A stretch of DNA of 64,000 bases from Desulfovibrio desulfuricans (GTDB lineage Bacteria > Desulfobacterota > Desulfovibrionia > Desulfovibrionales > Desulfovibrionaceae). A model generated the notes under the pieces. The model saw nothing but the letters and a program-made list of their open reading frames with translations, had not been told where the DNA came from and did no database searches. The translations under genes were made by a program, and so were the position numbers. Of the stretch, positions 44,906 through 48,553 are shown in pieces (the stretch's first letter is position 1; each line of letters begins with the position of its first letter). The stretch is from NCBI GenBank assembly GCA_015062205.1, contig SUVB01000058.1, positions 124,001 through 188,000 of the forward strand. Reading direction: 5' to 3'.

Positions 44906-45187
44906 TTATGTCTTGCGGGGGCGGCCCCGCATTCTCGCCGGCGGCTTTGGGGCCGCCAGTGCCGCCTCAACGGAGCGCATAAGTTCCGACGGCTGCATCC
45001 CGAACGCCCCGGCAAGCAGCGCCGGCGCAGTGACGGAATCTCCACGCCGCCCCTGTTCCAATTTTGCAATGTAAGCTTCAGAAAGTCCGGCGAAACCGGT
45101 CAGTTGGGCTTGGGCCCCTCCCCTCGCCCGTCGTGCTTCCCGGACAGCAGTGCCGATGGCGGACTCAAGGCCGATAATGTCATCCAT
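44906..45187 (-). CDS. XRE-family HTH regulator with C-terminal AT-hook-like tail
   Basis: AVREARRARGGAQAQLTGFAGLSEAYIAKLEQGRRGDSVTAPALLAGAFGMQPSELM; tail RMRGRPRKT. Confidence 0.8.
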   Translation of the reverse strand: MDDIIGLESAIGTAVREARRARGGAQAQLTGFAGLSEAYIAKLEQGRRGDSVTAPALLAGAFGMQPSELMRSVEAALAAPKPPARMRGRPRKT

Positions 45188-45317
45188 CCGGCATGGGTAG
45201 CGCACCTCTTGCGCAATTATTGATACAAGTGTAACAAATTATCGAGCAAAGAACCGCGACGGACGGTGCGCAGGCAATTTTGCCGTACTTCAGGAACAGT
45301 AACCGGGAGGGCTCAAT

Positions 45318-45581
45318 ATGCTTTTCACAAGATGCGGCGCAGCGCTTCTTTTCTGCATGTGCGTTGAAGCCATGTTGCCGAACGCTGCCCATGCGTATTT
45401 TGATCCCGGCACGGGCAGCATGCTCCTGCAGGCATTGGCCGCAGGACTTATCGGCGTCGCGGCATTCTGGCGTCACATCAAGGAAAAAATATCGAGCGTG
45501 TTTTCTTCAAAAAAAATAAAGAACAATGAATTTAGTTCAGGGATCTTTTCGGGACAGGTCTGGGTATGTCTACTGCATTGA
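45318..45581 (+). CDS. Small membrane protein with YFDPGTGSMLLQ motif
   Basis: MLFTRCGAALLFCMCVEAMLPNAAHAYFDPGTGSMLLQALAAGLIGVAAFWRHIKEKISSVFSSKK; signal peptide/TM; overlaps next ORF by 56 nt. Confidence 0.75.
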   Translation: MLFTRCGAALLFCMCVEAMLPNAAHAYFDPGTGSMLLQALAAGLIGVAAFWRHIKEKISSVFSSKKIKNNEFSSGIFSGQVWVCLLH

Positions 45582-46908
45582 TGAAAGGATAATTCGGTCT
45601 GTCAATGCATCATATCTGAAAGACTGGCAAGCCGCCGTATCTTCGGGCTTGCTTGAGGAATGCCTTGCGAAAAAGTGGCTGCCGGGTTTTCATGAAGTCT
45701 CCCCCCCGGAAGAGAATGCTGCCCTGGGGCTTGAAGTGGAGCGCATTCCCTTCATCTCCTATCCTTATGAATGGTGCTTTTCCCAGCTCAAGGACGCCGC
45801 GCTGCTGACTCTGGATCTGCATGTGGCGGCGCTGGAAAAGGGCTTAGTTCTGAAAGATGCCAGCGCCTACAACGTACAGTTTGTGGGGAGTTCACCCCGG
45901 TTCATTGACCTGCTTTCCTTCGAGCGATGGAAGGAAGGCGTCCCTTGGCAGGCATACCGCCAGTTCTGCATGCATTTTCTGGCCCCCCTCGCCTTGAGCC
46001 GCTATCTGGGGCTCTGGGCCGGAACCTTGACGCAGATGCGCACGGACGGCATCCCCCTTGCGCGCGCGGCCGCCCTGCTGCCGTGGCGTGCCCGCCTGCG
46101 CCCCGGGCTGGCATTGCACCTTTTTGCCCACGCGGCCATGGAAAAACGACATGCAGACGCGCGCAACGCGGCGGGAAAACTGAAAGACGTCTGTATGCGC
46201 AGGGAACAGCTCATCAATCTTGCCCTGTCGCTGCGCAGCCTTATTGAAAAAATGAAGCCGCCGAAAGCGGCAACCCAATGGGGCGGGTACTACGGCGACA
46301 CCAACTATACTGAAGCCGCTCTTGCCTTCAAACGGGAGAAAGTCGCGGCAATTGCGGCGGCCGCAGGCAAGCCCGCAGGCATTGCCGTCGACTTGGGGGC
46401 CAACACCGGAATGTTTTCCGCCTTGCTGGCGCCGCATTTCCGCTATGTGCTGGCTCCGGACGGCGACGCGCTCGCTGTGGAACAGCATTACGCAGCCCTG
46501 CGGAACAAGGGCAACAGTTCGATCCTGCCCCTCGTGCTGGATTTGAGCAATCCCTCGCCGGCGCTGGGCTGGGCCAATGCCGAGCGGGCTTCCTTCACAG
46601 GGCGCTGCAAGGCTTCCATGGTTGCGGCCCTTGCCCTTGTGCATCACTTGGCGCTCACCGAAGGGATCCCCTTCAGGGAGCAGGCTCGCTTTTTCGCCGA
46701 TATGCTGGACGACGGCGGGGTGCTGCTGCTGGAATTCGTTCCGCCCGACGACAGCCAGGTGCAGCGCATGACTCTGGCCCGGCAGGATGACTTGGGCTGG
46801 TATCGCCTGCCCGCTCTCCTGAACGATTTTGCTGCGGATTTCGTGCTGGAAAACAATATTCCCATAGCGGAATCCCAAAGGAGCCTCTTCGTATGGAGGA
46901 AAAGATAG
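45526..46908 (+). CDS. Class I SAM-dependent methyltransferase-like protein (NoeA-like)
   Basis: AVDLGANTGMFSALLAPHF; VAALALVHHLALTEGIPFREQARFFADMLDDGGVLLLEFV. Confidence 0.75.
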   Translation: MNLVQGSFRDRSGYVYCIDERIIRSVNASYLKDWQAAVSSGLLEECLAKKWLPGFHEVSPPEENAALGLEVERIPFISYPYEWCFSQLKDAALLTLDLHVAALEKGLVLKDASAYNVQFVGSSPRFIDLLSFERWKEGVPWQAYRQFCMHFLAPLALSRYLGLWAGTLTQMRTDGIPLARAAALLPWRARLRPGLALHLFAHAAMEKRHADARNAAGKLKDVCMRREQLINLALSLRSLIEKMKPPKAATQWGGYYGDTNYTEAALAFKREKVAAIAAAAGKPAGIAVDLGANTGMFSALLAPHFRYVLAPDGDALAVEQHYAALRNKGNSSILPLVLDLSNPSPALGWANAERASFTGRCKASMVAALALVHHLALTEGIPFREQARFFADMLDDGGVLLLEFVPPDDSQVQRMTLARQDDLGWYRLPALLNDFAADFVLENNIPIAESQRSLFVWRKR

Positions 46909-46909
46909 C

Positions 46910-48553
46910 ATGAAGATGCAAGGGTTACGAATTTTGAGTGTAGTGAATTTTTTTTGCATATTCCCGATTTTTCTTGTCTGGCTGTGTTATTATTTGAATG
47001 TCAATGATCGTATGGCCAATCAATATGAATGTCTGAAAATCAGCATCATATTTTTTTTATGCATATCAATAGTAATTTATACTTTAATACATTTTCTTGA
47101 AAAGTTATGTAAATACTTCTCGTATGCCTATCTTGCATTTGACATTATTTTTGTTGCACTATGTGTGCTGGCTGTGTTGTTCCCTATAGAGCATATACTT
47201 CTGGATGGTAAAGAAGTTGCTGATGTACCATTTGGCGTAACAATAAAACAAGTCTGTATTTTTATTGTTGTATTTTTGCTCACATTTTTATTTTGTAAAG
47301 TAAAGAGAGACGAGTTTATTTTTTTGAAGCATGCATTCAGCATATTCTGTTGCATTTTTATTTTGTATGCTGCAGTGCAGATGGATAAAGACGCAAATGC
47401 CGCGTTGCCTTCCACGATGGAAGAAAAAAATTTCACCTTCGGTGACAGGAATGTCATCCTGCTGGTGACGGAAACCCTGCAGGGGAATTATTTCAAAGAG
47501 ATTTTTGACGAAAGCCCTGAGATTTTTTCCGAATTCACTGGCATGACGCTCTTTGACAAGGCCGTCACCGCTACCAACTGGTCTCCCTTTTCCACCAACC
47601 AGATTTTCAGGGGCGGCAACAACTGGCAATCTTTCCAGACGCGCGCCGAGGCGGTACAGGCGCTGGAGGAGGATTCCCTCATAACGGACGCCCGAAAATA
47701 TGGCTTCCGTTTTTCCGGTGGCCGCTATACGCCTGTGAAGGCACAATACTTCACAGGCAAAACGGAAGATAGCAATATCCCGTTTCGGGTTCGTTTACCC
47801 AAAATTATCCTGACAAATTCGCGTTATTATTTTGCCGCATTCAGGCGCGTTATTCCAGCTGTATTATGGCCTCGTATCAATAAACTTGAAATGAAAATAT
47901 TTTGGAAATATCTTGGTAGCGGGCAATATCCCAACAAAATATCTGCAAAAAACAATTTACTGCATATCAAGAATACTGCAAGGAAATCTTCTGGAAACGC
48001 GTTCTTTTATTTTTTCAACTACATGACGCACAGGGAAATACTCTTTGATCGGAATGGCACGCCGGTACCTGGTCTACCTCAAAATAAGGATACACAAAAA
48101 GAAGAATACAGGTATGCCGTTGCTCTTTATGGAGATTTTTTTGCAAAGCTGAAAAAGATAGGCGTCTATGACGATGCATTGATCGTCATAACCGGCGATC
48201 ATGGTACCTACGATGAACCCTTCGGTTCGTATAACCCCGCAGTCTTTGTCAAACCGCCGCATGCGCAAGGGGGACTTCGTGTTTCATCTGCCAATCTCTT
48301 GCTCAGCGACCTCCGCGCTCTGATTGCCGCCTACATGCATGACGACGCCGCTTGCGAGGCCGGCTTTACCGGCATAGCGGCTGCCGCCGGGCCGCGACGT
48401 TTTGATGTCTTCGTCTACCGGCCGTCGAAAAACATCCTGCCGGGGAACAAATGGGAAAACGACAACGGCACTGCTTACGTGCGGATACCCATTGAAGGAG
48501 ATATCGCCACTGTCCGTAACGTGCTGAAGGCGCATGAAAAGCAAAGGCCATGA
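46910..48553 (+). CDS. Membrane sulfatase/alkaline-phosphatase-superfamily protein
   Basis: N-terminal TM helices; NVILLVTETLQGNYF...MTLFDKAVTATNWSPFSTNQIF; ALIVITGDHGTYDEP. Confidence 0.8.
   Translation: MKMQGLRILSVVNFFCIFPIFLVWLCYYLNVNDRMANQYECLKISIIFFLCISIVIYTLIHFLEKLCKYFSYAYLAFDIIFVALCVLAVLFPIEHILLDGKEVADVPFGVTIKQVCIFIVVFLLTFLFCKVKRDEFIFLKHAFSIFCCIFILYAAVQMDKDANAALPSTMEEKNFTFGDRNVILLVTETLQGNYFKEIFDESPEIFSEFTGMTLFDKAVTATNWSPFSTNQIFRGGNNWQSFQTRAEAVQALEEDSLITDARKYGFRFSGGRYTPVKAQYFTGKTEDSNIPFRVRLPKIILTNSRYYFAAFRRVIPAVLWPRINKLEMKIFWKYLGSGQYPNKISAKNNLLHIKNTARKSSGNAFFYFFNYMTHREILFDRNGTPVPGLPQNKDTQKEEYRYAVALYGDFFAKLKKIGVYDDALIVITGDHGTYDEPFGSYNPAVFVKPPHAQGGLRVSSANLLLSDLRALIAAYMHDDAACEAGFTGIAAAAGPRRFDVFVYRPSKNILPGNKWENDNGTAYVRIPIEGDIATVRNVLKAHEKQRP

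Follow-up and report, generated by a model that had tools for sequence, protein, structure and literature searches.

A small DPGTGS membrane protein encoded with NoeA and NoeB homologues, from Desulfovibrio to the Sinorhizobium nod operon

A 64,000-nucleotide stretch of Desulfovibrio desulfuricans DNA (contig SUVB01000058.1, positions 124,001 to 188,000), referred to here as the window, carries on its plus strand, at 45318-48553, three open reading frames (ORFs) arranged head to tail, which encode an 87-amino-acid (aa) membrane protein with a DPGTGS motif, a homologue of the nodulation protein NoeA and a membrane enzyme of the NoeB type. The positions in our ORF listing match those of an earlier note on this DNA, which had described the three genes as tightly packed: genes 1 and 2 share a 56 nt overlap, genes 2 and 3 are spaced by 1 nt, and Shine-Dalgarno-like sequences are found 5' of gene 1 (GGGAGG) and gene 3 (GGAGGA). 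We tentatively propose that this is a NoeA-NoeB type operon with the DPGTGS protein as a third component, most likely serving the phosphate-linked decoration of an exported or envelope glycan or of a lipid-linked precursor. Since genes 2 and 3 are homologues of noeA and noeB, genetically defined Medicago nodulation host-range genes named in 1995 (Ardourel 1995, as cited in PMC9758233), the earlier view that these genes have no defined function is not supported. In S. meliloti, nodL-noeA-noeB form an operon under nod box n5 (Ardourel 1995, as cited in PMC9758233), and rhizobial NoeA/NoeB have been hypothesised to modify Nod factor (PMC9048898), although no biochemical function of noeA/noeB was found described in the literature searched. 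The cluster is therefore already partly known, including the neighbourhood of the NoeA family (PMC9758233), whereas the searchable literature appears to contain no description of the small third component, of its place in the nod operon or of its occurrence at other phospho-group loci as well.

The second gene (45526..46908, plus strand) encodes a 460-aa protein that contains AVDLGANTGMFSALL and scores above the cut-off of no Pfam or NCBIfam model. A tblastn search against named plasmids matched 65 records, mostly from Sinorhizobium, in which the annotated matches are nodulation protein NoeA, and identity to Sinorhizobium NoeA is 30% over residues 4-459 (99% of the length, E about 4e-36). Judged by sequence, its family identity is firm: it is a full-length NoeA homologue with both domains. 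The class I methyltransferase core that had been recognised earlier is indeed present, but the first ~245 residues, a kinase-like domain (45526..46260), had been missed. In this domain D111 (codon 45856), N116 (45871) and D128 (45907) are present in 100%, and R24 (45595) in 98%, of 66 homologues, among which the S-adenosylmethionine (SAM) site residues of the methyltransferase domain (46282..46905; D289-x-G-x-N-x-G, H373 H374 and E403) are 97-100% conserved. R24, D111, N116, D128, D289 and N293 are identical between the window protein and S. meliloti NoeA. An AlphaFold2 model (predicted local distance difference test, pLDDT, 84) has a kinase-like order of elements in its N-terminal domain (beta-beta-helix-beta-beta-helix(E)-catalytic loop-beta-beta-D128), and a class I methyltransferase domain after it. 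With this model as query, Foldseek returned NodS (3ofj) as the best match and WbdD (4azt) at rank 18, matches that are in line with the predicted methyltransferase half, while phmmer against all PDB chains gave no match at E 1, WbdD included. The model also has a fold match in a giant-virus 'methyltransferase domain protein' (BFVD A0A481Z196, Mimivirus LCMiAC01; 499 alignment columns, template modelling score 0.61), and a kinase-methyltransferase of NoeA-like shape may thus exist in a giant virus. In the same genus, a 448-aa protein of L051 (G013; matched at L005:853-2196) is a distant (23%) relative of the NoeA-like protein; no DPGTGS protein was found for it, and its neighbour resembles, by eye, a second methyltransferase.

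The third gene (46910..48553, plus strand) encodes a 547-aa protein that groups with NoeB in an iterated family profile (6e-63) and, as far as family identity goes, firmly corresponds to NoeB; against the Pfam Sulfatase model it scores only E 0.0021, below the cut-off. It had been described as a transmembrane-anchored protein of the alkaline phosphatase (AP) superfamily with a TGDHGT motif, which holds, since it carries ITGDHGT, a hydrophobic N-terminus, where a multi-transmembrane region is predicted (46910..47404, in which a low-confidence model also shows helices), and conserved AP-type residues. The predicted active-site residues (47471..48202) are E188 (47471), S225 at the nucleophile position (47582), H374 (48029) and D430-H431 (48197-48202). 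Among 55-60 homologues the nucleophile column is Thr in 90% and Ser in 9%, and the metal-ligand columns are D/E in 100%, H in 100%, D in 100% and H in 83% (E in 15%). A formylglycine sulfatase was considered and rejected, for neither these Thr and Ser residues nor the S225-P-F-S-T of the window provide the C/S-x-P/A-x-R signature; 'sulfatase' is therefore the name of a fold and not of a function, and the suggestion of a phospho-type rather than sulfo-type active site agrees with the predicted residues. LtaS/EptA-type transferases combine N-terminal membrane helices with an AP-superfamily domain that has a Thr/Ser nucleophile and D/E and DH metal ligands. The window enzyme shares these traits, a Thr/Ser nucleophile and AP-superfamily metal ligands behind a hydrophobic N-terminus, at the level of residues only, whereas sequence similarity is marginal: it scores far below the cut-off of the curated model for the lipoteichoic acid synthase LtaS (14 bits versus 970), and its match to the lipoteichoic acid primase 4uop reaches only E 0.055.

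The first gene (45318..45581, plus strand; family profile match 1.4e-24) encodes a protein with a signal-peptide-like N-terminus, one transmembrane helix and a basic tail. It contains AHA followed by YFDPGTGSMLLQALAAGLIGVAAFW, the YFDPGTGS motif (45396..45419) standing right after the predicted A-H-A cleavage site. The protein belongs to no family in Pfam or NCBIfam, and a literature search for 'DPGTGS' returned nothing but an unrelated occurrence. In the family alignment (A5) Y, D and the second G of YFDPGTGS are invariant; a signal-peptide-like N-terminus is present in 46 of 72 members, typically ending just ahead of Y-[LI]-D-P-G-[T/S]-G-S, and the tail after the transmembrane helix is net-positive in 66 of 72. 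The window protein fits the family definition (Y-[LIF]-D-P-G-[TS]-G-S, one transmembrane helix, a basic tail and a place beside NoeA or another phospho-enzyme). This layout would place the motif in the periplasm, a topology that also fits a fusion in locus L182, in which a further hydrophobic segment lies ahead of a phosphodiesterase domain.

The same small gene is found in rhizobia. On S. meliloti pSymA and in Ensifer canadensis, a DPGTGS ORF of 71-82 codons lies between nodL and noeA (L143:4721-4969 in S. meliloti 1021 pSymA and L142:4721-4969 in E. canadensis pT173b), and the small ORF occurs in 61 rhizobial plasmid records, with genus counts equal to those of noeA, where it is either a 'hypothetical protein' or without annotation. 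The order small gene-noeA-noeB is common to Ensifer, Sinorhizobium, Rhizobium and the window, the gene after noeA being annotated as a sulfatase-like hydrolase/transferase in E. canadensis and Rhizobium sp. T1470 (noeB in Ensifer). The small ORF of S. meliloti differs from that of Rhizobium sp. T1470 by a non-synonymous divergence (dN) of 0.065 against a synonymous divergence (dS) of 0.246; a spurious ORF was rejected on the ground of conservation across phyla and, for rhizobia, of these values. The window cassette thus resembles the S. meliloti operon in its full-length middle homologue, its AP-fold membrane partner directly downstream and its DPGTGS ORF directly upstream. It differs in that it has no nodL upstream and no Nod-related gene was seen nearby, that its host is Desulfovibrio-like, with no nodulation context, and that NoeA identity is only ~30%.

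The NoeA-like family is more widely spread. Counting matches to a NoeA-like family profile at E 1e-10 (a few of them partial or weak), and naming each phylum after the named locus on which a genome sample was centred, NoeA-like proteins were found in 8 of 297 genomes of Desulfobacterota, 19 of 189 of Myxococcota, 20 of 201 of Planctomycetota, 7 of 192 of Patescibacteria and 7 of 299 of Pseudomonadota. In these five sampled phyla, and in Gemmatimonadota too, the small ORF is again found next to homologues of the middle gene. Conserved co-occurrence across phyla, for which the earlier note had proposed a profile and neighbourhood check, was borne out: the DPGTGS ORF is present in 55 of 66 NoeA-family loci, 48 of which also have an AP-superfamily gene when all 66 are counted. 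Of 61 pairs on the same strand, 49 have the DPGTGS ORF directly ahead of the noeA-like gene, and in 35 of those 49 the two genes overlap. A reverse search with the small-protein profile in the same genomes (687, three phyla) found both genes in 38, the noeA-like gene only in 9, the small gene only in 8 and neither in 632 (Fisher p 7e-46, a value that overstates the case because related genomes are not independent), and the pairing holds in each of the three phyla separately. Taken together, recurrence and co-occurrence are not due to chance. The tree of the NoeA-like family mixes phyla (23 label changes versus a minimum of 6; in four of the groups, well-supported branches require 4 to 6 changes), and the cassette therefore moves horizontally; the window protein groups with Desulfovibrionaceae and one metagenome-assembled genome labelled Holosporales. 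The membrane or envelope setting envisaged earlier is supported, and glycan genes lie near part of the loci; GT2 accounts for 7 of 91 neighbours, a figure made without background comparison, and sugar-nucleotide and sugar-transferase genes also occur, which is no more than suggestive.

A related gene neighbourhood has been described in Legionella. NoeA and Lani_1194 both consist of an atypical kinase domain and a SAM methyltransferase, with a partner of alkaline-phosphatase fold, and of 816 neighbourhoods 65% retain a homologue of Lani_1193 and 38% one of Lani_1195 (PMC9758233). The fusion of a kinase-like domain to a methyltransferase and the conserved neighbours, one of them of AP fold, are shared with the window; for Lani_1194 and Lani_1195 of Legionella anisa, effector roles were considered (PMC9758233). 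Lani_1193, left undescribed in the main text of PMC9758233, occupies the place expected of the DPGTGS protein, which may have been counted there under that name.

The small protein also occurs at loci in which it has no noeA-like neighbour. In 12 of 14 such loci, counting one fusion, it has a same-strand AP-superfamily partner within 4 kb; in a 13th (L210) the AP-superfamily gene lies 2.7 kb off on the opposite strand, and L212 has none. What stays constant in these loci is thus the association of the DPGTGS protein with an enzyme of the AP superfamily, and all the cytoplasmic alternatives to NoeA that were identified act on a phosphate or phosphonate group. In L188 and, with a score just below the cut-off, in L180, the DPGTGS segment is fused to a CDP-glycerol glycerophosphotransferase-like domain (PF04464), and a local profile built from L180/L188-type proteins found the same type of fusion in L181. 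Moreover, L180 has an NTP transferase-choline kinase, L188 a phosphoenolpyruvate (PEP) mutase and L209, by inspection, genes for a PEP mutase and a phosphonopyruvate decarboxylase-like protein, while PF01663 phosphodiesterases are neighbours or fusion partners in L182, L183 and L185. This replacement of NoeA fits both a scaffold role for the small protein and the transfer of a phospho-headgroup, the two hypotheses put forward in the earlier note. Some of these loci have features of their own. Beside the DPGTGS-CDP-glycerolphosphotransferase-like fusion, L180 (7250-9790) and L188 (2729-5560) encode a YidC/Oxa1 (60KD_IMP) domain joined to a sulfatase-fold domain, as does, probably and by sequence resemblance only, L181 (6531-9548); such proteins are possibly a combined insertase-like and transferase machine. 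In L209 (1-7693), from a planctomycete with a noeA-type locus at another site in its genome, the DPGTGS protein and AP-superfamily enzymes surround apparent phosphonate genes (by eye, a PEP mutase fused to a nucleotidyltransferase, a phosphonopyruvate decarboxylase-like gene and an iron-containing alcohol dehydrogenase-like gene) and a CDP-glycerolphosphotransferase-like gene. In the literature searched, nothing relevant turned up on phosphonate/sulfatase/CDP-glycerol links or on fusions of YidC with sulfatase.

These findings outline a model in which the kinase half of the NoeA-like protein would phosphorylate a sugar or carrier at the cytoplasmic face and the methyltransferase half would methylate that phosphate, giving a methyl-phosphate product, or a neighbouring hydroxyl, as in the capping of the O9a antigen of E. 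coli by WbdD. The DPGTGS protein would serve as a dedicated membrane subunit or adaptor, with its motif in the periplasm, one transmembrane helix and a basic tail in the cytoplasm, and would pair with the NoeB-like AP-superfamily enzyme, which through its Thr/Ser nucleophile would transfer, or less likely trim, a phospho-group on the periplasmic side. The acceptor would be a surface or exported glycan, and use with Nod factors would at most have been recruited late. WbdD, from E. coli O9a, joins a kinase to a methyltransferase in a single glycan-acting protein, but it is described with a coiled coil (PMC3482155) and has been treated as a separate kinase-methyltransferase family (PMC9758233). 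It shares with the NoeA-like protein the pairing of a kinase or kinase-like domain with a methyltransferase in one chain and a methyltransferase fold match, but there is no sequence match and the structural match, of 214 columns, covers about one domain; WbdD is not known to have a DPGTGS or AP-superfamily partner. Several observations weigh against the model. The window NoeB-type enzyme is divergent, with Ser in place of Thr, and structural modelling of it failed, at a pLDDT of 41. Roughly one in four NoeA-type loci lacks a same-strand AP gene within 4 kb, although this share includes contig ends as well as loci with an AP gene on the opposite strand, and the window cassette has no adjacent glycan gene except a GT2 ~2.2 kb off. 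A PDB profile search with the kinase-like domain returned no kinase, and the equivalent of K72 is Arg, so that phosphoryl transfer may have been lost; a pairwise profile comparison with a choline kinase was non-significant, though D-x4-N and I-D are in register. Finally, no biochemistry was found for any family member in the literature searched.

Among the alternatives, an unlikely one is that the NoeB-like enzyme is a hydrolase that strips or edits the (methyl)phosphate added by NoeA, or a carrier phosphate, so that the module would remodel instead of transferring. Its best recognisable relatives do belong to the sulfatase/phosphodiesterase clan, and the PF01663 phosphodiesterases mentioned above would be in accord with this scenario, but its multi-transmembrane N-terminus and catalytic Thr resemble LtaS/EptA-type transferases, and its regular association with enzymes that make headgroups is more readily accounted for by transfer. 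Rather less probable is a catalytically dead, substrate-holding kinase-like half, in which case the protein would simply methylate a glycan or lipid and be anchored to the membrane by the small protein. The Lys-to-Arg change at the ATP lysine, the lack of a recognisable alpha-C Glu (PMC9758233) and the failed PDB profile search all point that way; however, the invariance of catalytic D111 and N116 and metal-binding D128 across phyla would be unusual for a pseudokinase, and the enzymes that stand in for NoeA are themselves phospho-enzymes. It is doubtful that the DPGTGS protein is a substrate, that is, a secreted peptide whose motif Thr/Ser is phosphorylated, methylated or headgroup-loaded by both enzymes: although T/S is conserved in the motif and the mature N-terminus starts at it, the motif and the cytoplasmic kinase-methyltransferase are on opposite sides of the membrane, some members lack the Thr/Ser (DPGAGS and DPTAGG, for example), and in fusions the motif forms a domain within GT-B and phosphodiesterase proteins. 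A module specific to Nod factors (lipo-chitooligosaccharides), for which the nodL-noeA-noeB operon and the proposed Nod-factor modification (PMC9048898) speak, is very improbable in view of the intermixed phylogeny of a family found in Desulfobacterota, Myxococcota, Planctomycetota, Patescibacteria, Gemmatimonadota and Pseudomonadota, whose non-rhizobial members have no reason to make Nod factor.

The GC content of the three window genes (0.49, 0.59 and 0.44) is below that of the flanks (0.66-0.69), and the cassette was therefore probably acquired horizontally. It is surrounded by housekeeping genes: upstream lie shikimate kinase, an M24 peptidase, the GT2 and what look by eye like ATP synthase subunits, and downstream dihydroorotate dehydrogenase genes. 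GC content and setting together suggest that it arrived as a unit. The next gene upstream, on the opposite strand (44906-45205), is a small helix-turn-helix gene (HTH_31/HipB-like) that could be a local regulator or an insertion leftover.

Returning to the proposed phosphate-linked decoration, a broader and somewhat more speculative possibility is that the DPGTGS protein is a general, hitherto unrecognised membrane subunit of AP-superfamily headgroup transferases. Together with the AP enzyme it would form a constant membrane pair that moves different phospho-groups across the membrane onto surface glycans, in combination with interchangeable cytoplasmic modules (the NoeA kinase-methyltransferase, a CDP-alditol-type transferase, or choline or phosphonate activation), and the Sinorhizobium nod operon would contain an overlooked fourth gene. 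The comparative data give noeA/noeB a missing third component and point to phosphate-group chemistry rather than to chemistry confined to Nod factors. If this is true, a tiny membrane protein common to phosphocholine-like, phosphonate-like and kinase-methyltransferase loci would represent a common design for bacterial surface decoration.

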